Below, in pieces: positions 42,761 through 64,000 of a stretch of 64,000 bases of DNA. The notes beneath the pieces are model-generated. The model had not been told where the DNA came from. It made no database searches and saw nothing but the letters and a program-made list of their open reading frames with translations. Each line of letters starts with the position of its first letter. Position 1 is the stretch's first letter. The position numbers and the translations under genes were made by a program. Origin of the DNA: Bacillota bacterium. Its GTDB lineage: Bacteria; Bacillota; Limnochordia; DTU087; JAAYGB01. The stretch covers positions 62,001 through 126,000 of the forward strand of contig JAAYGB010000036.1 in assembly GCA_012727955.1 (NCBI GenBank), read 5' to 3'.

Positions 42761-43744
42761 ATGATGGCATTTATTGGGCGGCGATTTGTGTACATGATCT
42801 CCACCCTAGTATTTGTTTCCATCATCGGATTCTTTTTGATTAACTTACCGCCTGGCTCATATCTTGACGTGTACAGGGCGGAGCTAATGCTTCAGGGAAC
42901 CAGTACTGCCGACCAGCAGATTGAGGCTCTGAATCAGCGCTATGGGTTGGATAAGCCAATCTATGTACAGTATTGGAAGTGGATTAGCGGCTTTGTCCGT
43001 GGCGACTTCGGTCGGTCCTTCCAGTACAACCGAGAGGTAAATGAGTTAATTTGGAGTCGACTTGGATTTACCGTTGTCATCTCCTTGGGTAGCTTGATTT
43101 TCAGCTGGATTGTGGCTGTGCCCATCGGTATCTATTCGGCGACACACAAGTACTCAGTAATGGATAATGTCTTTACCTTCTTCTCCTTCATAGGATTAAG
43201 TGTCCCGGGCTTCTTGATTGCTCTAGTACTGATGGTCATTTCATCTCGTGTCTTTGGGTGGTCAATCGGTGGCCTGTTCTCCCGGGGAATGGAGAATGCT
43301 CCCTGGAGTATGGCCAAAATCATTGACTTCTTACAGCATCTATGGATTCCAGTCATCGTTGTTGGTATGTCCGGTACTGCAGGTCTGATGCGGACTATGC
43401 GAGGAAACCTGCTTGACATTCTGAACATGCAGTACGTACAGACGGCGAGGGCTAAAGGGTTGACGGAAACCAAGGTGGTTTACAAGCACGCAGTCCGCAA
43501 CGCCCTTCACCCGCTGATCATGAGTCTCGGAATGAGCTTCCCTTCGATTATTTCGGGAAGTACGGTTGTGTCAATTGTGTTGAGTCTGCCGACCACAGGT
43601 CCGCTGTACTTTAACGCATTGCGCTCCCAAGACATGTTCTTGGCTGGAAGTTTCCTGGTATTTCTTTCAATAATGCTGGTTGTCGGTAACTTCTTTGCCG
43701 ACATTCTTCTGGCCTTGGTCGATCCGAGAATTCGTTACGAGTAA
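42761..43744 (+). CDS. oligopeptide-type ABC transporter permease (OppB/DppB family)
   Basis: Membrane protein of 327 residues with six helices. The N terminus FIGRRFVYMISTLVFVSIIGFFL is typical of OppB, as are LGLDKPIYVQYWKW-like RYGLDKPIYVQYWKW and the EAA loop QTARAKGLTETKVVYKHAVRNAL (residues about 225-247). ATG 42761 (a second ATG follows at 42764) is preceded by GGAAGTGAT. First gene of an oppBCDF-like operon, co-located with two solute-binding proteins. Confidence 0.94.
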   Translation: MMAFIGRRFVYMISTLVFVSIIGFFLINLPPGSYLDVYRAELMLQGTSTADQQIEALNQRYGLDKPIYVQYWKWISGFVRGDFGRSFQYNREVNELIWSRLGFTVVISLGSLIFSWIVAVPIGIYSATHKYSVMDNVFTFFSFIGLSVPGFLIALVLMVISSRVFGWSIGGLFSRGMENAPWSMAKIIDFLQHLWIPVIVVGMSGTAGLMRTMRGNLLDILNMQYVQTARAKGLTETKVVYKHAVRNALHPLIMSLGMSFPSIISGSTVVSIVLSLPTTGPLYFNALRSQDMFLAGSFLVFLSIMLVVGNFFADILLALVDPRIRYE

Positions 43745-43759
43745 AGGGAGGTCGGAGTA

Positions 43760-44902: not shown

Positions 44903-44932
44903 AGTGACCGCAATGAGATTGAAGGAGGGATC

Positions 44933-45955
44933 GTGGTGGCAGTAGAGCAGAAGACGCTAGCTACCAATAATGAGGAACTGATCCGAGTTGAGGATCTAAG
45001 AACGTACTTCTATACTGAGCAAGGCGTAGTTAAGGCCGTCGACGGCGTTAACTTCTCAATAAAAAAGGGTAAAGTTCTTGGTGTTGTAGGAGAAAGTGGC
45101 TGTGGTAAAAGTATTACAGCATCATCCATCATGAGGCTGTTGCCGGAACCACAGGGACGAATCGTGTCGGGTAAGATTACCTTTAATTCACCCGATGGAC
45201 AGGTTATCGATATTACATCACAGGACCGTCATGGACAGGTGATGCGGAGTATTCGGGGTCGTCATATCGCTATGATTTTCCAAGAGCCTATGACGTCCTT
45301 GAACCCGGTATATACCGTTGGCGATCAGATTATGGAAGCGGTAACGCTTCACCAGAAAGTCGGTGAGGCCGAGGCTAGAGAAAGAGCCATTGAGGTTCTG
45401 CGGGAAGTAGATATCCCGGATCCTGAGCGTCGTGTCGACGAATATCCTCACCAGATGAGTGGAGGACAGCGCCAGAGAGCAATGATTGCCATGGCTCTAT
45501 CCTGTCGTCCTAGTCTGTTGATCGCCGACGAGCCGACCACAGCCTTGGACGTCACTATTCAGGCTAAGATTCTGCGGAATATGAAGGCTCTGCAGGACGA
45601 GTATGGCATGGCAATTATGATGATTACCCACGACTTGGGCGTAATCGGGCAACTTGCCGATGAGGTTATTGTCATGTACGTCGGTAAGAAAGTTGAGCAG
45701 GCTGAGGTCCGAGAGCTGTTCCACAACCCTGCCCACCCCTATACGCAAGGGCTGATGAAGTCGGTACCGATGATCGGCTTACGGCATAAGAAGCTGAGCC
45801 CCATCGCTGGATCGGTCCCAAGCCCCTACGCGCTGCCGAAGGGTTGTAAATTTGCTCCGCGGTGTCCGAAGGCGATGGACATCTGCCGTCAGGAAGAGCC
45901 GCCGGAGTTCGAAATCGGGCCCGATCACACCGTCAACTGCTGGCTGTATAAGTGA
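44933..45955 (+). CDS. oligopeptide-type ABC transporter ATP-binding protein (OppD/DppD family)
   Basis: 340 residues. Walker [13 protein letters not shown], signature [15 protein letters not shown], Walker [15 protein letters not shown], and the oligopeptide-family C-terminal extension with [19 protein letters not shown], whose Cys pattern can hold an iron-sulfur cluster in some homologs. Starts at GTG 44933 or 44936 after GAAGGAGGG. It works as a heterodimer with the next ATPase. Confidence 0.95.
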
Positions 45956-45965
45956 GGTGGTTACT

Positions 45966-47042
45966 ATGACGAATGCTAACACAGCTAAGAAGGACAATAT
46001 ACTGCTCGACGTCAAAGGTCTTAAGAAGTACTTCCCGATTCAGAAGGGATTTTTCCGCAAGACCGTCGGCTATGTCAATGCTGTCGATGGCGTTGACTTG
46101 TTTATTCGCGAAGGTGAAACTCTAGGTCTAGTTGGCGAAAGTGGATGTGGTAAGACAACCACCGGCCGAACGATCTTGCGATTAATCGAACCAACGGAGG
46201 GGGAAATCAATTTCCGTATGCCCTCCGGTGAGATGGTGAATATCACTACCCTAGACAAGGAAGAAATGAAGCGTCTGCGTCGGCAGATGCAGATCATCTT
46301 CCAGGACCCCTTCTCATCCCTTAACCCACGGATGTCCGTGGAGCGTCTGGTCTCCGAACCCTTGGTAATCCACAATATCGGTGATGAGAAGTCCCGCCGG
46401 GAACGGGTAGCCGAGCTGCTGCAAGCTGTAGGTCTGAGTCCAAGTGTTGCCTCACGTTATCCCCACGAGTTTAGTGGTGGACAGCGGCAGCGGATTGGTA
46501 TTGCTCGGGCATTGGCGCTAAATCCAAAATTGATCATCTGTGACGAACCAGTCTCGGCCTTGGACGTGGCGGTTCAGGCTCAGGTGCTCAACTTGCTTCA
46601 GGATCTCCAGGAAGAGTATGGTCTAACCTATCTCTTTATTGCCCACGACCTGAGCGTAGTGGAGCATATCAGTGACCGAGTCGGTGTGATGTATCTGGGT
46701 CGAATTGTCGAACTGACCACGGCTGAGGAATTGTACGCAAATCCCTTGCATCCTTACACCGAGGCACTATTGTCGGCCATTCCTTTCCCAGAGCCAGACA
46801 TGAAGACCGAGGAAATCCTTCTGGATGGTTCTGTACCGGATCCGTCCAATGCACCTTCGGGTTGTCACTTCCATCCTCGCTGCCGTTATGCGACGGAGCA
46901 ATGTGCCGTTGAAGCCCCGGTCCTGCAGGCGACGGAGGAGAATCCGGAGCACTTTGTGGCTTGTCATCGCTACAAGGAGCTTTCGCTGGCCGCGGTTCAG
47001 CCGCCTCAGTCCGTACTCGACAGAGTTGCCGGGGAAGACTAA
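45966..47042 (+). CDS. oligopeptide-type ABC transporter ATP-binding protein (OppF/DppF family)
   Basis: 358 residues. Walker [13 protein letters not shown], signature [15 protein letters not shown], Walker [15 protein letters not shown], and the C-terminal [38 protein letters not shown] is the usual OppF N-terminal region. ATG 45966 follows GAGGTGG by 5 bases, 10 bases after the oppD-like stop. The transcript ends at a strong terminator. Confidence 0.95.
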
Positions 47043-47928: not shown

Positions 47929-49893
47929 TTGATTAAGCAAACTTCAAGAATTGCATTACTAGCTGTAGTTGCTGTAATTGCTTTTGCTTCTTTTGCTTTC
48001 GCTTATAACGAAGCACCTGTGTTGGCAGATAAGGTAAAGGCCGGTTTGCTGCCGCCGGTAGAAGAGCGTCTACCGGAGAATCCGTTGGTTATCGAGCCTT
48101 TGCGTGAGGTCGGTCAGTATGGTGGCACCTGGGTGCGCTTTACCACCGATACCAACTTCACCGACGCTCGGATGTTGATGTATGGTTGGTCACCAATCCG
48201 TTGGGTTAACGACGCCCTGGACATTGCTCCTGGCTGGTTGGAGAGCTGGGAGTCCAACGCCGATGCCAGTGAGTGGACCCTCAACATCCGCAAGGGCATC
48301 AAGTGGTCTGACGGAGCTCCCTTTACCGCCGCCGACTTCATGTTCTGGTGGGATGACATGGTCCTCAACCCTGAGATGTCTGACCCCGTTCCGGACATGT
48401 TTATCGCCGGTGGAGAAATTGCTCAGTTCAGCACCCCTGACGAGTACACCATTATCGTGAAGTACGCTGCTCCGGCTCCGTTGCTGCCCTACCGGTTGGC
48501 AATGTGGTGTAAGGCCGGTCACGGTGAGCGCCTCATCGTACCAGCTCACTACTTGAAGCAATTCCACCCAGACTACTCCGACTACACCACCTTCGAGATC
48601 TTCGAAGAGAAGATGGAGTGGTGGACCAATCCGGAGATGCCTGTTCTCTCCGAGTGGATGCCTGTGGAGTATCGCCCGGCTCAGAAGCTGGTTCTGGAGC
48701 GTAACCCCTACAGCTACTATGTCGATACCGAAGGCAATCAGTTGCCCTACATCGATCGGATCGAAGTTGACCTGATCGAGGACAAAGAAGTTATCAAGCT
48801 GAAGTTGATGAATGGCGAAGGCCAGATGCAGGTTCGTCCTTACATGGATCTTTCCGACCTGTCCATGTTGATGAGAGGTCGGGAGGCCGGCGGTTACGAG
48901 GTCTACCTCTGGGACAGTGGCTCTGGTACCGGTCCGATGTTGTACTGGAACTGGAACCATCCCGACGATGCTAAGCGGGAAGTATACCGCAACAAGGATT
49001 TCCGCCGTGCTCTCTCCCTCGGTATCAACCGGGAGCGCATCCAGAGAATGCTGTACTTCGGTCTCGGTGAGCCAACCACTGGAACCTTCAGCCCCAAGGC
49101 TGCTGAGTATCACCGTACCGAGGAAGGTCAGGCTCTCTTCCAAGAGTGGAAGAACTCCTGGGTCAAGTATGATCCTGAGCGAGCTAAGCAGATGCTAGAT
49201 TCCATTGGTGTTGTCGACCGCAATGGTGACGGCTGGCGGGATCTGCCCAACGGCGAGCCTTTGGTACTGCGGATTGACTTCAACTCTCAAGCCAACCGCA
49301 CCGACATTCAGATCAACGAGATGGTTGCAGTCGACTGGGAGAACCTGGGCCTCAAGGTTCAACTGAACCCCATCGATGGTTCTCAGTTCAGTGTGCTAGA
49401 TGCCACTGCTACCTTTGACATCCACAACAGCTGGGAAATCGGCGACGGTCCGAACCACTTGGTCTTCCCGCAGTGGATTGTGCCCATTGACGTCAGCCGC
49501 TGGGCTCCGCTCAACGGTGGTTGGTACTCTGTCATCGGTACCGACAAAGAGGGTACTGAGCTAGACAAGGCACCCCGTGATCGCAGCCCGGTGCGTGAGC
49601 AACCTGAGCCCGGTGGTCCGGTAGAGCGTCTGCAAAAGCTCTATGACCTGGCCAAGGTCGAGCCCGATGAGGCCAAGCGTGATCAATATGTTCTCGACAT
49701 GATCCGCATCCACATCGAAGAAGGTCCCTTCTTCCTGGGTACTATTGCCAACTATCCTCGTCCTGTGATCGTCAGCAAGAACATGAGGAACGTACCCACC
49801 GGAGATGACCTGGCACTAGGTGGCTTCGTCAACCCCCACATCGTGCCTTATCCTGCAATTACTATTCCGGCTCAGTACTGGCTGGCTCAGTAG
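47929..49893 (+). CDS. oligopeptide-type solute-binding protein, family 5 (copy 1)
   Basis: Exported binding protein of 654 residues. Signal peptide ending about AFA|YNEAP, with no Cys, so not a lipoprotein. The mature protein shows the family-5 pattern with YGGTWVRF, WTLNIRKGIKWSDGAPFTAADF, and YWNWNHPDDAKREVYRNKDFRRALS-type features (residues about 345-370). The TTG start follows AGGGAGGGT by about 6 bases. It serves the oppBCDF genes upstream; oligopeptide or oligosaccharide cargo cannot be told from the sequence. A near-copy follows directly. Confidence 0.93.
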   Translation: MIKQTSRIALLAVVAVIAFASFAFAYNEAPVLADKVKAGLLPPVEERLPENPLVIEPLREVGQYGGTWVRFTTDTNFTDARMLMYGWSPIRWVNDALDIAPGWLESWESNADASEWTLNIRKGIKWSDGAPFTAADFMFWWDDMVLNPEMSDPVPDMFIAGGEIAQFSTPDEYTIIVKYAAPAPLLPYRLAMWCKAGHGERLIVPAHYLKQFHPDYSDYTTFEIFEEKMEWWTNPEMPVLSEWMPVEYRPAQKLVLERNPYSYYVDTEGNQLPYIDRIEVDLIEDKEVIKLKLMNGEGQMQVRPYMDLSDLSMLMRGREAGGYEVYLWDSGSGTGPMLYWNWNHPDDAKREVYRNKDFRRALSLGINRERIQRMLYFGLGEPTTGTFSPKAAEYHRTEEGQALFQEWKNSWVKYDPERAKQMLDSIGVVDRNGDGWRDLPNGEPLVLRIDFNSQANRTDIQINEMVAVDWENLGLKVQLNPIDGSQFSVLDATATFDIHNSWEIGDGPNHLVFPQWIVPIDVSRWAPLNGGWYSVIGTDKEGTELDKAPRDRSPVREQPEPGGPVERLQKLYDLAKVEPDEAKRDQYVLDMIRIHIEEGPFFLGTIANYPRPVIVSKNMRNVPTGDDLALGGFVNPHIVPYPAITIPAQYWLAQ

Positions 49894-49930
49894 TAGGGCA
49901 GGTAAATAAAGTCAGATAATTGACGCATTG

Positions 49931-49966
49931 CAGCCGAGGAAAAAACTGTTTCCTCGGCTGTATTTT
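49931..49966 (+). terminator. first intrinsic terminator between the two binding-protein genes
   Basis: Perfect 12-base stem CAGCCGAGGAAA / TTTCCTCGGCTG with a 6-base loop, then TATTTT. Confidence 0.9.
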
Positions 49967-49983
49967 AGTTAACGCTTTTTTTA

Positions 49984-50026
49984 CAGCGGTTTCGGACATT
50001 GTGTTCGAAACCGCTGACTTGTTTTT
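49984..50026 (+). terminator. second intrinsic terminator in tandem
   Basis: 15-base stem starting CAGCGGTTTCG and closing CGAAACCGCTG, one G-T mismatch, 3-base loop, then ACTTGTTTTT. It lies 18 bases after the first terminator. Confidence 0.8.
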
Positions 50027-50234
50027 AGGCGGCTCATTGGCGGCAATAGGCAAAGAGTTTAAAGAAATGTAAAGAAAAAAAGAGATCAAAAGAAGGAAAA
50101 AGGCCTTCGCCGTCTAACATTTCTAATAGTGGTAACACAACAGCAATGTTTCGGGGGTGGTAAGGGAAGAGACAACGACTCGGTACTTATTTAGGTTTAG
50201 TATATGTCCGAGAACTTAAGGAGGTAACACAGAA
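50027..50234 (+). other. upstream region of the second binding-protein gene
   Basis: Completes the roughly 340-base gap that opens with two terminators. The remaining 208 bases are A-rich at first and contain GGTAACA (50131-50137) about 100 bases before the start, matching the position of GGTAACA (47830-47836) before copy 1. AAGGAGGT lies 9 bases before ATG 50235. I see no convincing -35/-10 pair. Confidence 0.4.
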
Positions 50235-52214
50235 ATGATTAGACGATCTTCTGTCTTTACCGTACTTGTAATGATTGGCTTGCTGGTTTTCAGCGCAATG
50301 GCCATCGCAGCTCCGAAGAAGTATAACGAAGCTCCGATGTTGGCCGAGAAGGTTGCCGCTGGGCTATTGCCTCCCGTCGAGGAGCGTTTGCCCGAGAATC
50401 CGATGGTAATTAAGCCTCTCCATGGCGTTGGCCAATATGGCGGTACCTGGGTCCGATTTGAGAGCAGCCCGACCTGGGGCGCCCTACGAATGATCATGTA
50501 TGGTCACTCTCCGATTCGCTGGGTTGACGACGCCCTAGGTATCGAAGGCAACTGGGTGGAGAGCTGGGAGTCCAACGAGGACGCCACTGAGTGGACCCTC
50601 AACATCCGTAAGGGCATCAAGTGGTCTGACGGTGTTCCGATGACTTCCGCAGACTTCATGTTCTGGTGGGAGGACATGGTGCTCAATCCCGAGATGTCCG
50701 ACCAAGTTCCGGACTACTTCATTGCTGGTCGCCGGACCGCCCAGATTTGGGCTCCCGATGAGTGGACCATCAATGTGAAGTTTGCAGCTTCGGCTCCTCT
50801 GCTGCCGGAACGGATGGCATGTTGGGTCAACAACGGCCACGGCGAGCGGTTAATCGTTCCGGCTCACTATCTGAAGCAGTTCCATCCCGACTACACCGAC
50901 GAGTATACCGACTTTGAAGTGTTGGAAGAGAGGATGGAGTGGTGGGTGAACCCAGAGTGTCCTGTGCTCACCGCCTGGATGCCCGTAGAGCATCGAGTTT
51001 CTCAGAAACTGATCCTCGAGCGGAACCCCTACTACTGGGCAGTCGACACCGAGGGTAACCAACTGCCTTACATCGACAGAATCGAAGTTGACTATGTCGA
51101 GGACGTCGAAGTTATCAAGTTGAAGCTGCTCAACGGCGAAGGCCACATGCAGGTTCGTCCCTATCTGCAGCTGTCTGACCTCTCCATGCTGATGAGAGGA
51201 CAACAAGCCGGGAACTACAGAGTATATCTCTGGGATAGCGGCTCCGGTACTGGTCCAATGCTCTACTGGAACTGGAACCATCCCGACGATGCTAAGCGGG
51301 AAGTTTATCGGATGCCTGAGTTCCGTCGGGCCTTGTCCCACGCTCTAAACCGCGAGCGGATGCAGCGGATGCTCTACTTCGGTCTTGGCACCCCCACCAG
51401 CGGTACCTTCAGCCCGAAGGCTGCTGAGTACGGTCGGACCGAGGAAGGCGCCGCAATCTACGAACAGTGGAGAACCGCTTGGTTGGAGTACAATCCCGAG
51501 AAGGCTAAGGCAATGCTCGACGCCGCTGGTATCGTTGACCAAGACGGCGACGGATGGCGGGATCTGCCTAACGGCCAGCCTCTAACGGTACGGATTGACT
51601 TCAACGCCCAAGCCAGCAGAACTGACGTCCAGATCAACGAGATGGCTGCCGCTGACTGGGAAGCCATCGGCGTGAGAACTCAGCTGAACCCCGTAGACGG
51701 ATCTCAGTTGAGCTTGATGGATGCCAACGCTACCTTTGACGTTCACAACAGCTGGGAGGTCGGCGACGGACCGAACCACTTGGTCTTCCCACAGTGGATC
51801 GTTCCCATCGACGTCAGCCGTTGGGCTCCGCTCAATGGTGGTTGGTACTCCGTAATTGGTACCGATAAGGAAGGCACCGAGCTGGATAAGGCTCCTCGTG
51901 AGCGTAGTCCTGTTCGGGAAGAGCCCGAGCCAGGCAGCCCCGTTGCTCGTCTGCAAGAGCTCTACGACATTGCCAAGGTCGAGCCCGATCAAGCTAAGCG
52001 TGACCAATTGGCCCTAGAGATGGTCAAGATTCACATCGAAGAAGGTCCCTTCTTCCTAGGTACCATCTGTAACTATCCTCGTCCGGTTGTTGTCAGCAAC
52101 AAGATGCACAACGTACCGGATGTCACCGACCTGCCTCGCGGCGGTGCTGTGAACCCCTACATCACTCCTTATCCGGCAATGACCATGCCTGAGCAGTACT
52201 GGCTGGAGCAGTAG
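50235..52214 (+). CDS. oligopeptide-type solute-binding protein, family 5 (copy 2)
   Basis: 659 residues, clearly a duplicate of copy 1: long identical runs such as AAGLLPPVEERLPENP versus KAGLLPPVEERLPENP, YWNWNHPDDAKREVYR, and SPVREEPEPG. Signal peptide ending about AIA|AP, again without a lipobox Cys. ATG 50235 has AAGGAGGT upstream. Differences are spread through the ligand-binding body, so substrate divergence is likely. Shares the single opp transporter upstream. Confidence 0.93.
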   Translation: MIRRSSVFTVLVMIGLLVFSAMAIAAPKKYNEAPMLAEKVAAGLLPPVEERLPENPMVIKPLHGVGQYGGTWVRFESSPTWGALRMIMYGHSPIRWVDDALGIEGNWVESWESNEDATEWTLNIRKGIKWSDGVPMTSADFMFWWEDMVLNPEMSDQVPDYFIAGRRTAQIWAPDEWTINVKFAASAPLLPERMACWVNNGHGERLIVPAHYLKQFHPDYTDEYTDFEVLEERMEWWVNPECPVLTAWMPVEHRVSQKLILERNPYYWAVDTEGNQLPYIDRIEVDYVEDVEVIKLKLLNGEGHMQVRPYLQLSDLSMLMRGQQAGNYRVYLWDSGSGTGPMLYWNWNHPDDAKREVYRMPEFRRALSHALNRERMQRMLYFGLGTPTSGTFSPKAAEYGRTEEGAAIYEQWRTAWLEYNPEKAKAMLDAAGIVDQDGDGWRDLPNGQPLTVRIDFNAQASRTDVQINEMAAADWEAIGVRTQLNPVDGSQLSLMDANATFDVHNSWEVGDGPNHLVFPQWIVPIDVSRWAPLNGGWYSVIGTDKEGTELDKAPRERSPVREEPEPGSPVARLQELYDIAKVEPDQAKRDQLALEMVKIHIEEGPFFLGTICNYPRPVVVSNKMHNVPDVTDLPRGGAVNPYITPYPAMTMPEQYWLEQ

Positions 52215-52378: not shown

Positions 52379-53107
52379 TTGGCAGTGAGACAGACAGCGG
52401 ATCCAGCGCCGATGGTTACGATGCGAAAGGTAACTCGGGTATATGGAACCGGCAGACATAAGGTTCATGCTTTGCGGGGGATTGACCTGGAGATTCCTCC
52501 AGCAACTTTGGCGATAATCAAAGGCAGGTCCGGTTCAGGGAAGACTACCACCTTGAACCTGATGGCTGGCCTTGACCGAGCCACTTCCGGTCAGATCCTG
52601 GTTGCAGGAGCAGACCTAGCTGAACTTACCCAGAGGCAATTGACCCGGTGGCGGAGAAAGACCATCGGCTTTATCTTCCAGAGTTTTGGCCTGTTGCCCA
52701 GCTTGACGGCCTTGGAGAATGTTGAGCTGCCAATGCGGATTCTCGGCGTTGGCAGCAAGTTCCGTCGGGAGCGAGCCTTGGAGTGTTTACACCTGGTGGG
52801 GTTAACTCGGCGAGCCAGCCATCGGGTCTTGGAATTGAGCGGTGGAGAACAGCAAAGGGTGGGCATTGCCAGAGCCTTGGTCAACAAGCCCCAGCTGATT
52901 CTAGCCGACGAACCCACGGGAGAGCTGGATCACAACACTGCGATGAAGGTGATGGTGCTCTTTCGGGAATTGGTTGAGGTCCAGGGAGTAACCATCTGTT
53001 TGGTCACCCACGACCCCGCGGTAGAGGAGTTTGGAGACTACGTCTTTGCCATTGAGGATGGGCGAATCGGCGAGGTGCTGCACAGGCGCGAGGAGGGAGG
53101 GAGGTGA
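52379..53107 (+). CDS. MacB/LolD-type ABC ATPase (first of two in the locus)
   Basis: ATPase of about 242 residues. Walker A KGRSGSGKTTTLN, signature LSGGEQQRVGIARAL, Walker B LILADEPTGELD and RRKTIGFIFQSFGLLP mark the MacB/LolD group that powers FtsX-type permeases. The TTG start at 52379 has GGGTGGTGA 7 bases upstream; the frame is open from 52271, but the extra region is Arg/Lys-rich and not conserved. Its stop overlaps the adaptor start, so the two are coupled. Confidence 0.92.
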   Translation: MAVRQTADPAPMVTMRKVTRVYGTGRHKVHALRGIDLEIPPATLAIIKGRSGSGKTTTLNLMAGLDRATSGQILVAGADLAELTQRQLTRWRRKTIGFIFQSFGLLPSLTALENVELPMRILGVGSKFRRERALECLHLVGLTRRASHRVLELSGGEQQRVGIARALVNKPQLILADEPTGELDHNTAMKVMVLFRELVEVQGVTICLVTHDPAVEEFGDYVFAIEDGRIGEVLHRREEGGR

Positions 53108-54210
53108 ACCGCATTGGCCCCAGGGCTCAGGTTTTGGGCCTAAGGGCGGCGGTCTTGGCAATGGGAAAAGGACACTTAGCTTGGTACCGAAGGGGTTTTT
53201 TCATCGCAGCCGTGCTCATCGGGTTGCTTCTGATGGGTTCTGGCTGTGCCTTGTTACCGGAGGAGAAGGTGGATGAGGTGCCAGTATTACTGAGACCACC
53301 GGAAACCCGGCTTGTGACCTATGAGGTGATCGTAGGTCCCATCGCCGATCAAATTCGTGCCCTGGGGCGAGTGGCGGCCGTGAAGGAGGCCCAACTTTAC
53401 TTTCCTCGAACGGAGAGGCTCAAGCATGTTCACGTGGCGCCCGGGGAGACAATCACTGAGGGTCAGTGCCTGGCTGAGCTGGAGACCGGCGATTTGCGGT
53501 ATCGGCTGCAGCGAGCCCAGTTGGCCTTGGCTCAGGAGGAGCTTCGCTGGAAGCGAGTGGAGAATCTAGTGGGGATCGAGATTAACGAAATTGACTATGG
53601 CATCGCTCAACTGGAGCTCAAGAAGGCTCAACTGGAAGTGGACCACTTGACTAGGCAACTGGAAGCATCGATGTTGCGGGCACCCTTTTCCGGTGTGGTG
53701 GTCAGTGTCGATCGCCGGGAGCGGGAGTTAGTGGAAGGTTATGAAACTGTGATGACCATCGCAGATCCCAGTGAACTGGAGATTCAGGTGGAACTGTCCT
53801 ATACCAGCGATGTCAGCAAGCTGGTTCGAGGGCAGAAGGTTCTGGTTAACCTCGGGCGCGAAGAGTGGGTCACCGGCCACATTTACCAGATTTCTACCCG
53901 TCAGGATGATCCCAGTTACGCGCGGACCAGCTACCAATCGGCTCCCTTTGTGATCAAGATTCGACTGGACGATCCCCGGATTACTTTGGACTTTGACTCC
54001 TTGGTGCGGGTGGTGATTGTCATCGAAGAGGAACCAGAGGCAATTCTCGTTCCCAATGCCGCGATTCGCTCCTACATGGGCCGCAAGTATGTGCGGGTAC
54101 TCGAGGGTGATGTTCGTAAGGAAGTGGATATCGTTACAGGAATCGAAGGGGAGACGGAAACCCAGGTCCTCAAAGGACTCAAGCCCGGTGATATTGTGAT
54201 TGGAAAATAG
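53104..54210 (+). CDS. HlyD/MacA-type membrane fusion (adaptor) protein
   Basis: 368 residues: an N-terminal membrane segment (FFIAAVLIGLLLMGSGCALL), a lipoyl-like half (VAPGETITEGQCLAELETGDLRYRLQ), a helical hairpin (AQLALAQEELRWKRVENL ... AQLELKKAQLEVDHLTRQLE), the second half (LRAPFSGVVVSVD), then beta-barrel and membrane-proximal domains. A Cys after LLLMGSG is not a good lipobox, so the anchor is probably the helix. GTG 53104 follows AGGAGG by 7 bases. It links ATPase and permease as in MacAB systems. Confidence 0.9.
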   Translation: MNRIGPRAQVLGLRAAVLAMGKGHLAWYRRGFFIAAVLIGLLLMGSGCALLPEEKVDEVPVLLRPPETRLVTYEVIVGPIADQIRALGRVAAVKEAQLYFPRTERLKHVHVAPGETITEGQCLAELETGDLRYRLQRAQLALAQEELRWKRVENLVGIEINEIDYGIAQLELKKAQLEVDHLTRQLEASMLRAPFSGVVVSVDRRERELVEGYETVMTIADPSELEIQVELSYTSDVSKLVRGQKVLVNLGREEWVTGHIYQISTRQDDPSYARTSYQSAPFVIKIRLDDPRITLDFDSLVRVVIVIEEEPEAILVPNAAIRSYMGRKYVRVLEGDVRKEVDIVTGIEGETETQVLKGLKPGDIVIGK

Positions 54211-54236
54211 CAATGCCACAGTGAGGGGATTACCGG

Positions 54237-57056
54237 ATGCGCTGGCTAGCAGTTGTGTGGATGGTAGTCAAACAAGTGCTCAACAATTGGCGGCTGGAAG
54301 CAAGTATCCTGGCCGGGCTGATCATTGCCGTGGCTGTGGTTTCCTGTGTTCCAATCTATACCAGCGGAGCCTTGCAGTCGGTGCTAGTCGAGCAGTGGAT
54401 GGCCCGCACGGATCCCGGAAGAATGCCCAATACACTGATGTTTTATCATGATCCCCTGTTGGAGTCTGAGGTTGAGGATTACCACCGGGTGACGGAGTTC
54501 TTGGAGCAGGCAGTCCCGGCTCGATTAGGACAGCCTCAGCTCTCATCCCGGCTGGGAGAGATTCGGACCTCCCAGTTTTATTCCGCCCGGGATCCCCGGG
54601 GTCAACGGATTGGTTACGCCAATATTCGCTTCCTGACCAATCTCTTTGATCTAATTCAAGTCACCGATGGGAGATTACCTCGGTCCCGCCGATTACCCGA
54701 CGGCAGTATTGAGGCGATTGTTGATGAAACAACCCTAGATAGCCTGGGCTTACTGGTGGGGGAGACCTATGTCTTTCCCATTGACAAGAGAGGTGCCTAC
54801 GATACCTCGCCGGGGCAGTCCCTGAAGGTGACCGTGGTGGGAACCTTTGTCGGGAAGGTCCAGCCGGAATCTGCCCATGCCTGGCTGTATCTGCCCCCCT
54901 TTGATCGCAGTTTCTTTGTCACCGAACAACTCTTTGTTGAGGACCTCGCGCTGATCGAGGATGTTGGGGTAGGGCAGTATGTTTGGTATATGGTCCTAGA
55001 CCATCGCCCAGTGCGAGTGGATCACCTAGACCGCTGGATCGAAAGCTTTCGGTATATCGAATCTAGAGTGGCGCAGCTTATGCCGGGAACCAGGGCCTGG
55101 CGCTCGCCCCAGCGGCTCTTCCAGTACTTCTGGGACGAAGCTTCCTATCTGCGCCTCTTCATGTTTGCCTTAAGTGTGCCGATCCTGGGGATGGTACTGT
55201 ATTTTGTAGTCCTGGCGGCAACGTTAACGGTGCGCCGACGGCGAACGGAGATCGCGATGCTGCGCAGTCGGGGCGCGGGCATTTTCCAGATTGCCCTTGC
55301 CTATGTCCTGGAATGGGGGTTTCTAGGGGTAATTGCGCTGGTACTGGGACCATACTTGGGTCTGTGGATGGCCAGAGCTATCGGCGCTGCCTCGGGATTC
55401 CTTCAATTCGTCGACCGCCAATCGCTACCGGTTATTCTCTCCTCCGACGCTTATCTCTATGGCTTCGTCGGCCTGGTCATTGCCATTGGGGCTTGTCTCA
55501 TCCCAGTTATCCAAGCCGCGAGACACAGTATCGTGACCCATAAGCAGGCGGAGGCTCGAGCTGTTCACACCCCGGTGTGGCAGCGGTACCTGGTGGATTT
55601 TCTGCTCCTGGGGATTTCATACTGGGGCTATCGCATGCTAAGTCGCCAAGCCCTTTCCCTTCGCTCTGGCCAGTTCTCCGCAACGGAGGCAGTGATGATC
55701 ATCGATCCCCAGCTATTTCTCATTCCCTTAGTGTTTGTGACTGCCTTGGGTCTGTTTGTCCTGCGCCTATTTCCCTTGCTTATGGGTCTGGCTAATCGGA
55801 TCATTGCTAGGGGGAGAGGAGTTTGTCTGCCTATGACCGTCTTGCAGATGGCGAGAAACCCGGGACAACATCGCCCATTGCTCCTGCTTTTGATTATCAC
55901 CGTTGGCTCGGGTATCTATGGAGCCGCGACGGCACGAACCATGGATCAGAATTGGATGGATCAATTGCGATACAAATATGGTGCTGACGTGATCCTCCAG
56001 GAGCAATGGCAGCTACCTACTGCACCTGGGATGGGGGAGGACGATGACCCAGAGGCGACTCTTTTCGTTGAACCTCCCTTCTATATCCATGAGGAGCTGC
56101 CCGGAGTTGTCGCTGCAGCTCGGGTCTTTAAGGGAGCTGGGACAGTACGGGTCGGGGGTAATTACCTTAGCGGAGGCACGATTATTGGAATCGATCCCGT
56201 GGAGTATGCCGGTGTTGGCTGGCTGCGCAGTGACCTGGCGCCCCATCACTTATACGATTACCTCAATCTTCTCATCCAGGTTCCTGAGGGAGTACTGGTT
56301 TCTGGCTCGGCCGCAAAGGCCGCGGGATTGCGCAGTGGAGACTGGATTAGTGTGAGAATTGGCAATGAAGACGTGGATTTTATGATCGTAGGCACCTTAG
56401 AGTATTGGCCGACGATTGTTGACGCCGCTATGCCCTTTGCAGTAGCTAATCTCGACTACATTCAGCAGTCCACTACATTGCAGCCCTACGAAGTGTGGCT
56501 GCGGGTCACTCCGGAGTTTCGCCTGCAGACCGCGGTGGATCTCCTTAGGGAGCAGGGAATTTGGGTGATAAACATCAAGGATCTGAATCGAGAGTTAGTG
56601 GAAGGACGCCGGGAGCCGCAGCGAATGGGCCTATATGGCATGTTGTCCCTGGGGTTTATCGTTTCCGTGGTAATCACTGTCATGGGGTACTTTCTGTATA
56701 CCCTTTTGTCCCTCCACAGTCGGATGCTGCAATTTGGGATCCTGCGAACTATTGGCCTGTCCCTGTGGCAGTTAATCGCAATGCTGTCTCTGGAACAGTT
56801 GTTATCGGTGGGCTTAGGGGTGCTCTTGGGTCTGGGTATCGGGCAGTTGACGAGCCGGTTGTATCTGCCCTTTATCCAATATGGGGCCGATGTCGGAGCG
56901 GATTTCATCCCCTTTATCGTTGTCACCGAGGGCACCGATACCTGGAAAATCGTGGGTGTCTTGGGACTCGTCCTGATGGCAGCTTTGATTGTGCTAGCAG
57001 TTCTACTGTCGAGGATGCGTTTGCATCAAGCCGTCAAGCTGGGCGAAAACATCTAG
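54237..57056 (+). CDS. large FtsX-family ABC permease
   Basis: 939 residues, about twice the size of MacB transmembrane halves. A first helix (residues about 22-42) is followed by a long extracytoplasmic domain. A block of helices (about 305-430) contains LRRRRTEIAMLRSRGAG-like VRRRRTEIAMLRSRGAG, the FtsX signature. A second large extracytoplasmic region and a final FtsX block (about 800-930) carry MLQFGILRTIGLSLWQLIAMLSLEQ (residues about 830-855). Two FtsX modules in one chain make it pseudo-dimeric. The cargo is unknown; peptide, lipoprotein or antibiotic export are typical of the family. Confidence 0.9.
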   Translation: MRWLAVVWMVVKQVLNNWRLEASILAGLIIAVAVVSCVPIYTSGALQSVLVEQWMARTDPGRMPNTLMFYHDPLLESEVEDYHRVTEFLEQAVPARLGQPQLSSRLGEIRTSQFYSARDPRGQRIGYANIRFLTNLFDLIQVTDGRLPRSRRLPDGSIEAIVDETTLDSLGLLVGETYVFPIDKRGAYDTSPGQSLKVTVVGTFVGKVQPESAHAWLYLPPFDRSFFVTEQLFVEDLALIEDVGVGQYVWYMVLDHRPVRVDHLDRWIESFRYIESRVAQLMPGTRAWRSPQRLFQYFWDEASYLRLFMFALSVPILGMVLYFVVLAATLTVRRRRTEIAMLRSRGAGIFQIALAYVLEWGFLGVIALVLGPYLGLWMARAIGAASGFLQFVDRQSLPVILSSDAYLYGFVGLVIAIGACLIPVIQAARHSIVTHKQAEARAVHTPVWQRYLVDFLLLGISYWGYRMLSRQALSLRSGQFSATEAVMIIDPQLFLIPLVFVTALGLFVLRLFPLLMGLANRIIARGRGVCLPMTVLQMARNPGQHRPLLLLLIITVGSGIYGAATARTMDQNWMDQLRYKYGADVILQEQWQLPTAPGMGEDDDPEATLFVEPPFYIHEELPGVVAAARVFKGAGTVRVGGNYLSGGTIIGIDPVEYAGVGWLRSDLAPHHLYDYLNLLIQVPEGVLVSGSAAKAAGLRSGDWISVRIGNEDVDFMIVGTLEYWPTIVDAAMPFAVANLDYIQQSTTLQPYEVWLRVTPEFRLQTAVDLLREQGIWVINIKDLNRELVEGRREPQRMGLYGMLSLGFIVSVVITVMGYFLYTLLSLHSRMLQFGILRTIGLSLWQLIAMLSLEQLLSVGLGVLLGLGIGQLTSRLYLPFIQYGADVGADFIPFIVVTEGTDTWKIVGVLGLVLMAALIVLAVLLSRMRLHQAVKLGENI

Positions 57057-57100
57057 GCAAATTACGGGAAGAAGGATAAGATTGAAGGGCGGTAGGGAGG

Positions 57101-58114
57101 TTGGCTAGGCAACATTCACAGGTTCCCGGAGTCCGAGGACTCGGAGGGACACTGCAGTATCTCAAGGCCCGCTATCTACAACGGCAACAGCCCATCATCG
57201 CAACTGGACAGCCCTTTATTCTCTGCGAGAATTTGGTACGAATCTACCAGGTCGCAGATATCGAGGTTCAAGCCTTGCAGGGGTTGGACATGGTGATTCG
57301 GAAGGGAGAGTTAATGGCCATCATCGGGGCCAGTGGAAGCGGCAAGTCCACTTTGCTCAATATCCTTGGGGGCTTGGACGTACCCACCGCGGGGAGGGCA
57401 CGGGTAGCCGGTTGGGATCTTAATCGGCTCAGCTATCTCGACCGCATCCACTACAAGCGAACCACCGTTGGGTTTGTGTGGCAGAATGTTAGTCGCAACT
57501 TGGTTCCCTACTTGACTGCTTTGGAGAATGTGGAGTTGCCGATGATCCTGAGAGGCAAACTGGACAGAAAGCGGGCCAGAGAGTTGTTGACCGCGGTGGG
57601 GCTATCGGACCGGATGAACCATCGACCCCAGGCTATGTCGGGAGGGGAGCAGCAGCGGGTGGCTATTGCCATCGCGCTGGCCAATAACCCCCAGGTGCTC
57701 TTGGCCGATGAACCTACGGGTTCCTTGGATAGCAAATCGGCACAGCAGGTCCTGCAGGTGCTACGCCGGGTGCGGGATCTGTATGGGGTTACCGTGGTAA
57801 TCGTAACCCACGACATGAGTATGGCCCAGGCCGTGGATCGCTACGTACTGATTAGAGATGGAAAGATCAGCATGGAGTCGGTTCGCCGCCCCAGCAAAAT
57901 CTCTTCCTTCGCCGAAGATGAAGCAGCGTCCCAAGCTGAGGATGACAGCCACGACGAATTTGTGGTGTTGGATTCCGCCGGAAGAATGCAGCTTCCCGAG
58001 GAGTATATCAAGAAGCTGGGCCTGAAGGAACGGGCGCGAATTTCCCTGGCTGGAAACAGGATTATCATTTCCCCGGAAATGATTCAGGAAGATAACGAGG
58101 CAGCAGAGCAGTAG
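57101..58114 (+). CDS. ABC ATPase with C-terminal AbrB/SpoVT-like domain
   Basis: 337 residues. The first 270 form a MacB/LolD-type ATPase: Walker A IGASGSGKSTLLN (about 76-87), signature MSGGEQQRVAIAIAL, Walker B LLADEPTGSLD. After an acidic linker (about 270-284), residues 286-326 (FVVLDSAGRMQLPEEYIKKL and on to ISLAGNRIIISP) have the V-D-x-x-G-R-x-x-x-P-x-E-x-x-x-x-L-G pattern of the AbrB/MazE/SpoVT swapped-hairpin fold. The TTG start abuts GGGAGG, with AAGGGCGG at a better distance, so the start is imperfect. It is the second ATPase of the locus. Confidence 0.88.
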   Translation: MARQHSQVPGVRGLGGTLQYLKARYLQRQQPIIATGQPFILCENLVRIYQVADIEVQALQGLDMVIRKGELMAIIGASGSGKSTLLNILGGLDVPTAGRARVAGWDLNRLSYLDRIHYKRTTVGFVWQNVSRNLVPYLTALENVELPMILRGKLDRKRARELLTAVGLSDRMNHRPQAMSGGEQQRVAIAIALANNPQVLLADEPTGSLDSKSAQQVLQVLRRVRDLYGVTVVIVTHDMSMAQAVDRYVLIRDGKISMESVRRPSKISSFAEDEAASQAEDDSHDEFVVLDSAGRMQLPEEYIKKLGLKERARISLAGNRIIISPEMIQEDNEAAEQ

Positions 58115-58745: not shown

Positions 58746-60212
58746 TCAGTGGGCAAAGAAGATTCTCAGGCCAAACCGGCGCCAGGTCCCGGTCACCAGG
58801 CTAGAGACAAACAGAAAATCCCCGATAGCAAAGATAGCTCCCCCGGCAGCCCGCAGGGCCAGGTATGGTCTCAGGAGAGTGTGGGTCTCCATGAAGTCAA
58901 GACCGGCGATACGCCAGAGATAAGTCTGGAGGATTCCCGAGACAAGGAGCATTGTGCTCATCAAGAGCAGCCCCAAATTCAGTAGAGCCAATCCGATCCA
59001 GGCGCGAGTAAGTTCCGCCGGGGTCAGAGTAATCCTTTGGGTCAAGATATAGGTAGCCCCGGCAAGAACCAGAAATCCCACGGCTCCAAAGAGAGCCAGG
59101 TGAGCATGGGCTGAGGTGATATAGGTGCCGTGGGAATACCGGTTCCATTGGGGCACAGACATGATCATCCCCAGGAGCGCTGCTCCGAAAAGGTGGTAAA
59201 TGATGCTGCATATCACCAGGGCCAGGACCAGCCGATGGCCTGGGGGCAGCTGTTGCCACTTCATCCCTTCCAGTCCCCGATAGCCGATATACCCCAGCAC
59301 CAAGACTCCCGACATCTGGACAAGACTAAACACCCCTCCGATCCACAGCCATCCCCGGCTGTTGCCGATCCAGTAGTAGTGATGTCCCGTCGCAAAGATT
59401 CCGCCAATAATCGTGATGATGATGTTAAAGAATAACACCCGTTCCAGGCTCTTTCTGGTGGCTGCAATGGGGGTCAGGAGCAGACTGACCAACGCGCTGA
59501 TGTTGAGCAGTTCTAGGCTCATTTCCTCAGTCATATGCACCACCCAAAATCTGACCATCTGCTCAACGCTGGGGTGAAGGTAGGAAACCAGATTGGGTAT
59601 GTACTGGGCAAGGATGTACCAAGCCCCCAGTAACATCCCCACTAGGGTCACCCGCTGCCGGTATTGAGATTGGGTCTTCAAGTAGGTGCGCAGCAGGTTA
59701 TACCCGAAAATTTCCACGGCCAGGATAATGCCAAGTTTAAGCCCCGGCAAAGCTTCCAGGTACTCCCGGCCGGTGGTGTAACCCAGCAATAATGCCAGCA
59801 TAATCCCGGCAAAGGACAGCTGAAAAACCCAGAACTGCACCTGAGCCAGTGGGCGACTGTAGAGATCAACGTTCGCTTCTTGAACGAAAAAATAGTAGCC
59901 CACACCCATGCTGCCCAGCAGCGGCCAGTAGACACTGAGATTGAGGTGAATGGCCCGACCGATCTCAGCGGTGACGGGAGCCGGAAGCTGGGGCCAGACC
60001 ACGTGCAAAGCCCCGAGGGTGGCCACTAAGCCCTGGCTGCTGAACATCAGTAGGGTGGCAAAGCAGTAGGGCAGGGCAGCCTGTTGGGAGATATACCCTC
60101 GGGCTGTCCCATCGCGCTGTGATTTCCTCTTGCGCCGCAACCAAGATGCCACTAGCTGCACCAAAGCCGCGGGTAAAGGGATTAGCAACAGGAACCAAGG
60201 AATTCTTGCCAC
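58746..60212 (-). CDS. nitric-oxide-reductase-like heme-copper subunit (NorB family)
   Basis: Membrane protein of 488 residues with about 12 helices, the NorB length. Predicted ligands: heme b H89 and H371, FeB H226, H277 and H278 (TGHHYYWIG), heme b3 H369 (AHAHLALFG). Glutamates at the positions of P. aeruginosa NorB E211 and E215 are present (E230 and E234 in HMTEEMSLEL). The position of E280, important for NO reduction, is Gln (Q299). GTG 60212 overlaps the norC stop, with GGGGAGGA 6 bases upstream. It is NOR-like more than oxidase-like; activity on NO is inferred. Confidence 0.85.
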   Translation of the reverse strand: MARIPWFLLLIPLPAALVQLVASWLRRKRKSQRDGTARGYISQQAALPYCFATLLMFSSQGLVATLGALHVVWPQLPAPVTAEIGRAIHLNLSVYWPLLGSMGVGYYFFVQEANVDLYSRPLAQVQFWVFQLSFAGIMLALLLGYTTGREYLEALPGLKLGIILAVEIFGYNLLRTYLKTQSQYRQRVTLVGMLLGAWYILAQYIPNLVSYLHPSVEQMVRFWVVHMTEEMSLELLNISALVSLLLTPIAATRKSLERVLFFNIIITIIGGIFATGHHYYWIGNSRGWLWIGGVFSLVQMSGVLVLGYIGYRGLEGMKWQQLPPGHRLVLALVICSIIYHLFGAALLGMIMSVPQWNRYSHGTYITSAHAHLALFGAVGFLVLAGATYILTQRITLTPAELTRAWIGLALLNLGLLLMSTMLLVSGILQTYLWRIAGLDFMETHTLLRPYLALRAAGGAIFAIGDFLFVSSLVTGTWRRFGLRIFFAH

Positions 60213-60628
60213 TAGGAGTCCTCCCCTGCCGGTACTGGAAAAAGGGGCCTTGGGGGCCAGTCTGACAACTGGATACGGGATATAAGGCGCAGGTAGGCGA
60301 CGATGCTGGGAATATCCTCCGCGGGAAGTGCAAGGTGCCGCAGAGCCTTGGTGGGACGCTTCACAGGAGGGTACCGGAAAAAATGGATCAACCACTCCGC
60401 CCCTCGTTGGTTGTACACCTGGGTCAGTTCCGGAGCTGAGTAGCCACCGTTGCCAAAGACGGCGTGGCATTCGACACATCCATGTCTTTCCCAGACGGAT
60501 TTACCCGCTGCCTCCGCAGCGGTGAGATTTTGGGGATCAAGGTGTACAGTAAATCTAAAGATCAGGTAGCCAAAGATTAGGATACTAAGACTGGATACAA
60601 TTAAGGCGTAGAGCATGGGGCGATTCAT
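60212..60628 (-). CDS. membrane-anchored cytochrome c (NorC-like)
   Basis: 138 residues: an N-terminal membrane helix (LYALIVSSLSILIFGYLIF) and a monoheme c domain with CVECH at 51-55 followed by FGNGGYSAPELT, which is the NorC pattern. A downstream Met for the sixth ligand is not unambiguous. Its ATG overlaps the ccmF stop (ATGA), and its stop overlaps norB. It should pass electrons to the NorB-like subunit. Confidence 0.88.
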   Translation of the reverse strand: MNRPMLYALIVSSLSILIFGYLIFRFTVHLDPQNLTAAEAAGKSVWERHGCVECHAVFGNGGYSAPELTQVYNQRGAEWLIHFFRYPPVKRPTKALRHLALPAEDIPSIVAYLRLISRIQLSDWPPRPLFPVPAGEDS

Positions 60629-62079
60629 TGGGAATCCCGCACCTCCGAGGGTTTCTTGGTGAGAATTCTGCCCACGAGACTGGCGATGAGAAGCACTGCC
60701 CCCAGAGCCATCAGCACCACCGATGGGGCGATGGCCTTTCCCGGCAGGGCTGAGTCAGTCCCAGGCACCATCGCCGGGACGGAGACAAGACTAGTTCCCC
60801 AACCCGTCAGCAACAACAGCGCGCTAAGGTGAATCCTGCCCACTCCCGATAATTTCCGGGATAGCAAGGCGGAAACTAACGTCACCACACATCCCGCTCC
60901 CAGGGGAGTGAGGGCCAGGCGAAATACCGCGGCTGGTGGGATGAGGACAAATCTCCCTAGACCACTGGCCAGGGGATACAATACCGTGCCGGCAAGGAGC
61001 AGAACAAAGGTACAGCCCATCAATAGGATCGCGGTGGGAAGCAGCGCCTGGCTTGGGGCAAAGCGGTTGACCAGGTTAGGCCTTAGTTGTCCCTTCATCA
61101 AGGCCAGAATAACCACGGCAGCACCGATCAGTGTCAGCAGCAGGAAACAGCCTGCTGCCGGATCCCGGATCTTCCCTTCGCCAGTAACTAACCAGCCGCT
61201 TCTGGCTAGATAGGAGGCGAAGAAGGTGAAAAGCTGGGGCAGACAAAGGGCGATAGCACAGCCTCGACTCAATGAACCTCGCTCTGCGCTCTGGATCAGA
61301 GAGTGGACCGCGATCCCTGTGAGTAACCACAGGCTTAAGGCGATGTTTTCCAGGGGATCCCAGCGCCAATACACGCCGGCAAATTCCCGGTAGGCCCACA
61401 CTGCCCCCAGAAGTATGCTGGTACTGAGCCCCAGCCAAGCCACCAGGAGCCAATTACGGAGCAGGACCGAGATGGCAAAGGCAGCGTTCGCCGATCCTCG
61501 ACTGGTCGTCAGCCAATGCCCTAGAGTGAGGGCGAAGACCAAGGCCAGGCAGGCATAGCTTAGATAGAGGGTCGGTGGATGCAGGAAATTGAAGGGACTT
61601 TGCAGGGGCTGGCTGAGGCCTGGGCCCACGGTGGGCACGGGATCTAGGCGGGCAAAAAGTGGGGTAATCCACCTGAGGATCAGACCAAAGAAGCCCATCT
61701 GCGCCAGCATAATTCCCCTGGCAACGTCGCCACACCATCCCAGCCCGGGAAAGAGGCGTAGCTCACCGTAGCCAGTTACTATGCCAAGAAAAAACAGCCA
61801 TAGGAGCAAAGTGCCGGGCTTAGCGGACCAAAGGGCTGAGAGTTTATAAGGTTGAGGCAGGTCAGCGCTGGAATGCCCCGCGACATAGGCGAGGGAAAAG
61901 TTATCAGTAATGAAGGCCCAGGCCAGTTGGCCAAGGATAGCAATAATTAGGCCTAGGCTGGCCAGGACACAAGTGGCAATCCAAGGTTGGACTCTCTTGG
62001 TCCTGAAGCCCAACAGGCTCAGGAGGCCACCGATGCCGGTACAAGCTAGGAAGAAAACCAACAACAAGTCACCTTGCAC
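60625..62079 (-). CDS. CcmF/NrfE-like cytochrome c heme lyase
   Basis: 484 residues with about 13 helices. The periplasmic tryptophan-rich WWD-type motif is seen in VYWRWDPLENIALSLWLL, and family segments SALWSAKPGTLLLWLFF and LHPPTLYLSYA are clear. CcmF/NrfE proteins ligate heme to apocytochrome c; the NorC-like cytochrome just downstream is the obvious client. GTG 62079 (MQGDLLLVFFLA) follows GGGGTGG; a longer frame to TTG 62124 is less likely. It is shorter than typical CcmF (about 640), and no ccmE, ccmH or CcsBA gene is present here. Confidence 0.85.
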   Translation of the reverse strand: MQGDLLLVFFLACTGIGGLLSLLGFRTKRVQPWIATCVLASLGLIIAILGQLAWAFITDNFSLAYVAGHSSADLPQPYKLSALWSAKPGTLLLWLFFLGIVTGYGELRLFPGLGWCGDVARGIMLAQMGFFGLILRWITPLFARLDPVPTVGPGLSQPLQSPFNFLHPPTLYLSYACLALVFALTLGHWLTTSRGSANAAFAISVLLRNWLLVAWLGLSTSILLGAVWAYREFAGVYWRWDPLENIALSLWLLTGIAVHSLIQSAERGSLSRGCAIALCLPQLFTFFASYLARSGWLVTGEGKIRDPAAGCFLLLTLIGAAVVILALMKGQLRPNLVNRFAPSQALLPTAILLMGCTFVLLLAGTVLYPLASGLGRFVLIPPAAVFRLALTPLGAGCVVTLVSALLSRKLSGVGRIHLSALLLLTGWGTSLVSVPAMVPGTDSALPGKAIAPSVVLMALGAVLLIASLVGRILTKKPSEVRDSQ

Positions 62080-62245
62080 AAATTCCACCCCATGCCTAGT
62101 ATTGCCAGCATCGGCCAAGGGCAATCACAGATCAGGGGTATTGGGGAAAACTGAAGATTAGCTGGGCGGATTAACACCAATGACAGGGTTTGCGTTATTG
62201 ATACCGAAGGACAAAGAGAACAAACCCAACGGGAGGGATCTACCG

Positions 62246-63564: not shown

Positions 63565-64000
63565 CTATCCTTCCTCTGGCGGCCGCGCAAAGAAGGCCGA
63601 AACATCAAAGGACAGGCCGGGAAAACTTGGATGGACAAAGGTGCCGTCAAAGCAGCGAACCATTGACACGTAGTGCTGATCCCGCAGTTCATAGGCCTCG
63701 ATGATGCAGTTATCGGGATCGACAATCCAGTAGTGGGGAACCCTGGCCCTTTGATAGCAGTTTAGTTTGGCCACCCGGTCCCGGCGCACCGACGAAGGAG
63801 ATAGGATCTCCACCACCAGTTCCGGCAGTGAGTCCACGGGATTGTTCTTGGCTGGTCGGTCACCGGGTAGATACAGTAGGTCAGGTTGTAGTACCGTATA
63901 TTTATCAAAGTACACGTCCAAGGGGGCATCAAATACTTCGCCCCTGGGGTCTACTTTAGCGAAATACTCTTCTAGGATACGCTGTAACCGTCTTGAAAGG
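63565..64000 (-). CDS. Uma2-family putative endonuclease (5' end beyond the window)
   Basis: The frame is open from 64000 down to 63565, at least 144 residues, and continues outside the window. It has the Uma2 (PD-(D/E)XK-like) layout: GEVFDAPLDVYFD, QPDLLYL, PELVVEILSPSS and DRVAKLNCYQRARVPHYWIVDP, with candidate Asp, Glu and Lys residues intact. Uma2 proteins are widespread and of uncertain biological role. The true start cannot be seen. Confidence 0.88.
   Translation of the reverse strand, partial: LSRRLQRILEEYFAKVDPRGEVFDAPLDVYFDKYTVLQPDLLYLPGDRPAKNNPVDSLPELVVEILSPSSVRRDRVAKLNCYQRARVPHYWIVDPDNCIIEAYELRDQHYVSMVRCFDGTFVHPSFPGLSFDVSAFFARPPEEG

Follow-up and report, generated by a model that had tools for sequence, protein, structure and literature searches.

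What kind of enzyme is encoded by a norC-norB pair whose NorB carries Gln where a critical active-site Glu is expected, and which is preceded by a haem lyase gene of its own? The question is raised by a three-gene operon in a stretch of 64,000 nucleotides (hereafter the window), positions 62,001 to 126,000 of contig JAAYGB010000036.1 in the assembly GCA_012727955.1 of a Bacillota bacterium. Judged from its sequence, the NorB-like protein is a member of a sister family to the canonical cytochrome-c nitric oxide (NO) reductases (cNOR), a little-noticed branch present in many anaerobic Bacillota, and we consider it probable that the operon, taken as a whole, encodes a NO reductase (NOR) of this sister family, with a lower-potential electron entry and a stripped CcmF. 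The parts of the operon are as follows, the two overlaps and the start of ccmF being read from the DNA:

58746–60212, minus strand: norB-like gene, 488 residues, GTG start at 60212, 12 core transmembrane helices
60210–60214, minus strand: TAGTG overlap of the norC stop and the norB start, suggesting translational coupling
60212–60628, minus strand: norC-like gene, 138 residues, N-terminal transmembrane anchor, CVECH haem-c motif C51–H55
60625–60628, minus strand: ATGA overlap of the ccmF stop and the norC start, suggesting translational coupling
60625–62079, minus strand: short and divergent CcmF/NrfE-type haem lyase gene, 484 residues counted from GTG 62079
62077–62091, minus strand: likely ribosome-binding site and start of ccmF (GGGGTGG, 5-base spacer, GTG)

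No frame is interrupted, and the three genes overlap tightly, in the order ccmF, norC, norB on the minus strand; the first G of norB belongs also to the norC stop codon. A previous reading of this DNA (hereafter the sequence-only reading) had described three minus-strand genes with an ATGA and a one-base overlap, and its coordinates and overlaps were verified in the sequence.

The Active Site of NorB

NorB matched the Pfam family COX1 (6.5e-47), and its closest solved sequences were the NorB subunits of the cNORs from Roseobacter denitrificans (4xyd_A, 1.3e-39) and Pseudomonas aeruginosa (3o0r_B, 1.2e-38). The same two structures were the nearest folds of its AlphaFold2 (AF2) model (predicted local distance difference test, pLDDT, 84.7), with template modelling (TM) scores of 0.80–0.83 and a root-mean-square deviation of 2.1–3.1. 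In the alignment to 3o0r_B, H89, H226, H277, H278, H369 and H371 correspond to P. aeruginosa (Pa) H60, H207, H258, H259, H347 and H349, E230 and E234 to E211 and E215, and E150 and E153 to E135 and E138. The position of Pa E280, 21 residues past the second FeB His, is instead taken by Gln (Q299), and that of Pa V210 by Glu (E229). In canonical NOR, Glu280 lies next to a water on FeB, and both Glu280 and Glu211 are critical (PMC3431322). A misalignment of Q299 was ruled out, its flanks (GHHYYWIG...FS-x-x-Q) being free of gaps, as was a sequencing error, since Gln is found also in 21 other sequences of the clade described below. The sequence-only reading had reported that all haem and FeB His ligands are kept, that E230 and E234 match E211 and E215, and that Gln stands in place of E280; all three observations proved exact, and the last is recurrent in the clade. 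What it overlooked were the Glu at 210, the probable change of axial ligand in NorC and the loss of the NorQD marks. No NCBIfam NorB model reached the window NorB, and the clade is easily misannotated as oxidase.

A Sister Family to Canonical cNOR

A sample of 399 Bacillota genomes was searched for norB relatives, which were found, at 36–50% identity, in 23 other genomes with ten family codes. A contig scan added as named clade members, among the matches listed, at least Desulfosporosinus, Paradesulfitobacterium and Pelosinus; these matches were mostly proteobacterial cNOR, from which a confinement of the clade to Bacillota cannot be proved. In a tree of 59 rows (30 from the clade and 25 canonical cNOR, with quinol-dependent NOR, qNOR, as outgroup) the 30 window-type rows formed one clade (support 100/99), sister to, and outside, canonical cNOR (98/95), and this topology was unchanged when columns 210 and 280 were masked. 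The nearest relative of the window NorB, L114, shares 49% identity with it (support of the pair 100/98), and the window NorB stands on a terminal branch of length 0.61; a near relative was absent from 72 other genomes of the host class, four of which gave qNOR-type matches. Nothing in the tree placed the protein inside canonical cNOR, and the earlier description of a divergent NOR was upheld by tree, sequence and fold, which make it cNOR-type, outside canonical cNOR, qNOR and the O2 reductases. By contrast, the remark that such an enzyme is unusual in an anaerobe-like gene set has to be abandoned, since the clade with Gln is common to many anaerobic Bacillota and the host is therefore normal.

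The catalytic His and the FeB Glu are invariant across the clade rows, E230 and E234 being kept in all 30. Gln is the usual state of the clade at position 280, not a one-off: it was found in 22 of the 29 rows covering the column, against Glu in 25/25 canonical rows. The seven clade rows with E280 are confined to one nested subgroup of 12 rows, which includes Desulfosporosinus sequences, and three changes on the tree account for the whole pattern, the E280 of the Desulfosporosinus rows being probably a reversion. Position 210 is Glu in 27 of the 30 clade rows and Val in every one of the 25 canonical ones. This Glu immediately precedes the FeB Glu, shares its helix and could partly stand in for the lost charge; a strict compensation was ruled out by three early-branching rows with Q280 and no E210, and by seven in which E210 and E280 occur together. 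Most clade rows also have Y, S, A, F and L at Pa Q342, A345, G348, W203 and Y112, respectively, and the glutamates of the periplasmic proton path, E135 and E138, are kept, with Asp for E138 in four rows.

A haem-c subunit gene adjoins norB at nearly every clade locus. No further neighbour of norCB is conserved clade-wide, the other shared genes being limited to close relatives or belonging to common families. We also observed clade norB genes split over two or three frames in the genomes G255 (L136, G255:C1:424704-426057) and G182 (L137, G182:C1:1178872-1179509), and only a C-terminal remnant with stops in G202 (contig C17); these broken genes reflect either repeated gene loss or assembly errors. 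A second norB-like gene is present in two clade genomes (G186:C1:3058651-3059931 and G150:C75:1780-3060), at 31–33% identity to the window NorB, a level like that of the canonical-type Bacillota copies L030 and L031, and neither of these two clade genomes yielded a NorD. L030 and L031 themselves (in G201 and G083; about 833–1471) are canonical-type NORs with a doubled cytochrome c domain, in which the NorC domain is followed by a second CxxCH domain.

NorC and the Entry of Electrons

As in canonical cNOR, a separate, membrane-anchored monohaem NorC is present. It matched the cytochrome c family PF00034, has a helix at residues 3–29 and resembles 3o0r_C and 4xyd_B, and the best folds for its AF2 model were the NorC subunits of 3o0r and 4xyd (TM 0.55). 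In the segment between CxxCH and WPP, all 30 clade NorCs carry an invariant His, 42 to 44 residues after CxxCH (H98 in the window), whereas the canonical NorCs keep a Met in 24/24, at +41 where the segment has equal length. Met is missing altogether between CxxCH and WPP in seven clade NorCs, that of the window among them, and the whole periplasmic domain of the window NorC is devoid of it. The haem c of NorC is, then, probably bis-His, with H98 as the candidate distal ligand in place of the axial Met. Bis-His haems are generally at lower potential than His/Met haems; a lower potential would be expected here, suited to a menaquinone-based anaerobe, and the best reading is that NorC probably draws on a low-potential electron donor. 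A literature search retrieved no paper on a bis-His NorC or on this clade.

NorQD and the Host Genome

In canonical cNOR, NorQ and NorD are needed for FeB, with docking via D220/E222 of the Paracoccus denitrificans enzyme (PMC9976466). With the two numberings 13 residues apart, these residues are Pa D233/E235, and each is kept in 20 of the 25 canonical rows; in the clade, D occurs in 5/30 and E is not among the common residues. In the canonical loci tested, norB is followed directly by norQ and norD, neither of which was found near the clade loci. In the genome of the window and 21 clade genomes, a NorD profile detected no NorD of full length, the few matches there being C-terminal von Willebrand factor A regions of other proteins.

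The host genome is a 2.27-Mb draft, 96.9% complete, in which the operon lies on a contig of 129.6 kb. Its only haem-copper (COX1) gene is norB, and its only Cytochrom_C_asm gene is ccmF, with no CcmC-type partner; ResB, bc1 cytochrome b and an NrfA-type match were not found in this genome. NorC is the only PF00034 match, i.e., the only class-I cytochrome c found. A search with PF13442 gave no match and missed NorC itself, hence it is uninformative on other cytochromes, and PF00034 was used instead. Since neither bc1 nor a second class-I cytochrome c was found, a route from bc1 via a soluble cytochrome c to the cNOR is not visible in the host.

The Haem Lyase Gene

CcmF matched the Cytochrom_C_asm and NrfE/CcmF families, scoring 179 bits against a Bacillota CcmF profile. 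The best start is GTG 62079, because GGGGTGG lies just upstream, the alternative being a longer frame from TTG 62124; the limit at 62079 in the sequence-only reading was a sensible choice. The protein keeps P-His1 (H167) and TM-His1 (H259). P-His2, kept in 29/29 other aligned Bacillota CcmFs and in Escherichia coli, is lost (SVHAF has become TGEGK), the WWD motif is without its GW, and about 160 C-terminal residues are missing. TM-His2 could not be aligned, and a claim of its loss was dropped, since H417 may be its equivalent. At the other clade loci, no ccmF was found within about 9 kb of norCB. The window CcmF could serve a single client as a minimal lyase, or its gene could be in the course of being lost; we favour the first, because ccmF tightly overlaps norC, and attachment of the haem by a single protein, CcmF alone, is possible. 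The dedicated haem lyase proposed earlier is supported in that no other cytochrome-c assembly protein was found in the genome, and weakened by the missing key residues and by the lack of ccmF at the other clade loci examined.

Proposed Mechanism and Alternatives

The operon product is likely a membrane-bound NO reductase, which would catalyse 2 NO + 2 e− + 2 H+ → N2O + H2O. NorB would bind its cofactors as in cNOR, i.e., the low-spin haem b by H89 and H371, haem b3 by H369, and FeB by H226, H277, H278 and E230, in a pocket that appears rebuilt rather than merely one carboxylate short, the third Glu, E280, being replaced by Gln and an extra Glu standing at 210. Electrons would enter via NorC, for whose haem c we predict His/His instead of His/Met ligation, and its lowered potential would let them come from a menaquinol-level donor and not through the bc1/cytochrome c route, which is absent from the genome. 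FeB would presumably be inserted without NorQD, and the stripped CcmF, the only candidate found, probably attaches the haem to NorC. The physiological role would most likely be NO detoxification in an anaerobe.

Several points weigh against this interpretation. To our knowledge, no activity, spectrum or potential is available for any clade member. In NorCs of equal length the clade His lies two residues past the Met column, so that coordination is deduced from the sequence, and the AF2 model of NorC, weak at residues 59–65, of low confidence in part of the haem loop and haem-free, is no test of the ligand. CcmF is without residues that all the other examined CcmFs keep, and NorC may go unmatured in this host; the gene absences, in a draft 96.9% complete, may be assembly gaps. 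Moreover, the canonical Glu280 is critical for activity and proton uptake (PMC3431322), and E280Q could signal a low activity or another reaction. Finally, the norBC of Acididesulfobacillus, perhaps a member of the clade, was hardly transcribed and its protein undetected (PMC10949509).

A bolder version, which we hold to be doubtful, sees in the operon a self-contained low-potential NOR module, with bis-His haem c and a rebuilt FeB/proton pocket (E210/Q280), fed directly with electrons from the menaquinol pool, NorQD-free and, in this lineage, matured by a one-protein CcmF without CcmE, CcmC and ResB; if true, a single operon would hold the client together with a cytochrome c assembly system of unusually small size. 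It is likewise unlikely that the enzyme works in every way like an ordinary cNOR, with E280Q near-neutral, a NorC loop that drifted to some other ligand, and an unrecognised cytochrome or cupredoxin as donor. The canonical fold and metal ligands of NorB would fit, and the nested subgroup with E280 indicates that the position tolerates both Q and E; however, Q280, E210, the NorC His, the loss of the NorQD docking acids and the lack of NorQD genes have become fixed jointly across a deep clade, the periplasmic domain of the window NorC contains no Met, and the host genome showed neither bc1 nor a second class-I cytochrome c. An operon decaying or poorly functional in this genome, its degenerate CcmF reflecting relaxed constraint, seems to us improbable: the loss of P-His2, of part of the WWD motif and of about 160 C-terminal residues, the missing CcmC-type partner, the norB genes of G255 and G182, broken into several frames, and the remnant in G202 all speak for it, but none of the three window genes is interrupted and they overlap tightly, their codon use resembles that of the neighbours, and neither the NorC His nor any catalytic residue has been lost over a long divergence (end branch 0.61).

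Another NO chemistry, such as NO dismutation, is brought to mind by the Glu-to-Gln change near the catalytic centre of the putative NO dismutases (Nods; PMC3413370), and we regard it as very improbable, since Nods are qNOR-type, carry Asn instead of a coordinating His and have no electron entry site, whereas the window NorB keeps all its His, branches with cNOR and not with qNOR, and belongs to a clade with a haem-c subunit encoded beside norB at nearly every locus. Least credible of all is a cbb3-like O2 reductase, as automated annotation would suggest: the only NCBIfam matches were weak and cbb3-type, and 'cbb3-type cytochrome c oxidase subunit I' is the name given to cNOR-like relatives on plasmids, but the score of 42.9 bits falls below the ccoN cut-off of 583, the NOR FeB Glu is present, and cNOR structures outrank cbb3 by both sequence and fold.

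If the operon does encode a NO reductase of the cNOR-sister family, the clade would be a second deep branch of cytochrome-c NORs, spread through anaerobic Bacillota and largely missed by profile-based surveys; in a 2024 survey, Desulfitobacteriaceae were the only Bacillota family with cNOR (PMC11388526), against the ten family codes of our sample. Uncounted carriers matter, since the NOR product N2O is a greenhouse gas. The natural variants with Q280 and E210, and the return of E280 in a nested subgroup, would offer a ready experiment on the third active-site Glu, and an invariant His instead of the axial Met in NorC would be a testable route of cNOR adaptation to low-potential, menaquinone-based anaerobes.

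Surroundings of the Operon

Promoter, terminator and Rfam scans gave no signal above chance. Composition gave no clear signal of horizontal transfer, the GC content resembling that of the neighbours, and codon use is close to theirs, with a slightly lower fit for norC and ccmF. An HD-domain gene faces norB and adjoins a MacAB/LolCDE-like export operon (window 53104–58114) for an HlyD-type adaptor, an FtsX-like permease of 939 residues and an ATP-binding cassette (ABC) ATPase. Farther away, an Opp-type ABC transporter (42761–47042) is followed by two consecutive SBP_bac_5 oligopeptide-binding proteins (47929–52214), and a Uma2-family gene (63565–63999) is cut by the right end of the window.

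Comparison with Known Systems

The CcmF of E. coli K-12 (647 residues, against 484 in the window) shares a WWD-type region, P-His1 and TM-His1 with the window protein, in which P-His2 (H303) is replaced, the GW of WWD is lost and the C-terminus is missing; unlike other CcmF/NrfE lyases, it has no CcmC-type or ResB partner in its genome. Among the NORs, eNOR, sNOR, gNOR and bNOR, divergent haem-copper enzymes as well, are related to B-family oxidases (PMC11388526), and their diagnostic residue is Q/N/D (table of PMC8756737). By motif spacing this site is the fourth residue past the first FeB His, the place of Pa E211, and corresponds to E230 here, an unchanged Glu; the sequence-only reading was therefore mistaken in stating that divergent NOR groups vary at the E280 site. 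With this Glu, and with cNOR and qNOR as the nearest homologues, an assignment of the window NorB to eNOR, sNOR, gNOR or bNOR was ruled out.

qNOR is a single chain with a fused N-terminal domain without haem c, whereas the window has a separate NorC with CxxCH, and the qNOR rows form their own outgroup. The putative Nod, which has Gln for a Glu near the catalytic centre as in the window NorB, is also a qNOR-type single chain, with His changed to Asn and no electron entry; the window has all His and a separate NorC (PMC3413370). The NorBC of Desulfosporosinus and relatives (Desulfitobacteriaceae) belong to the same clade and share the NorC His and E210, but the Desulfosporosinus rows have Glu at 280, and no ccmF lies beside norCB. 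Compared with canonical cNOR (3o0r, 4xyd), the window NorB has 26–27% identity and falls in the sister clade, with Q at E280, E at V210 and Y/S/A at Q342/A345/G348, the NorC has His for the axial Met, and NorQD genes and docking acids are lacking; what they share is the norC-norB order, the six His, E211, E215 and E135/E138, the WPP of NorC and the fold (TM 0.80–0.83).

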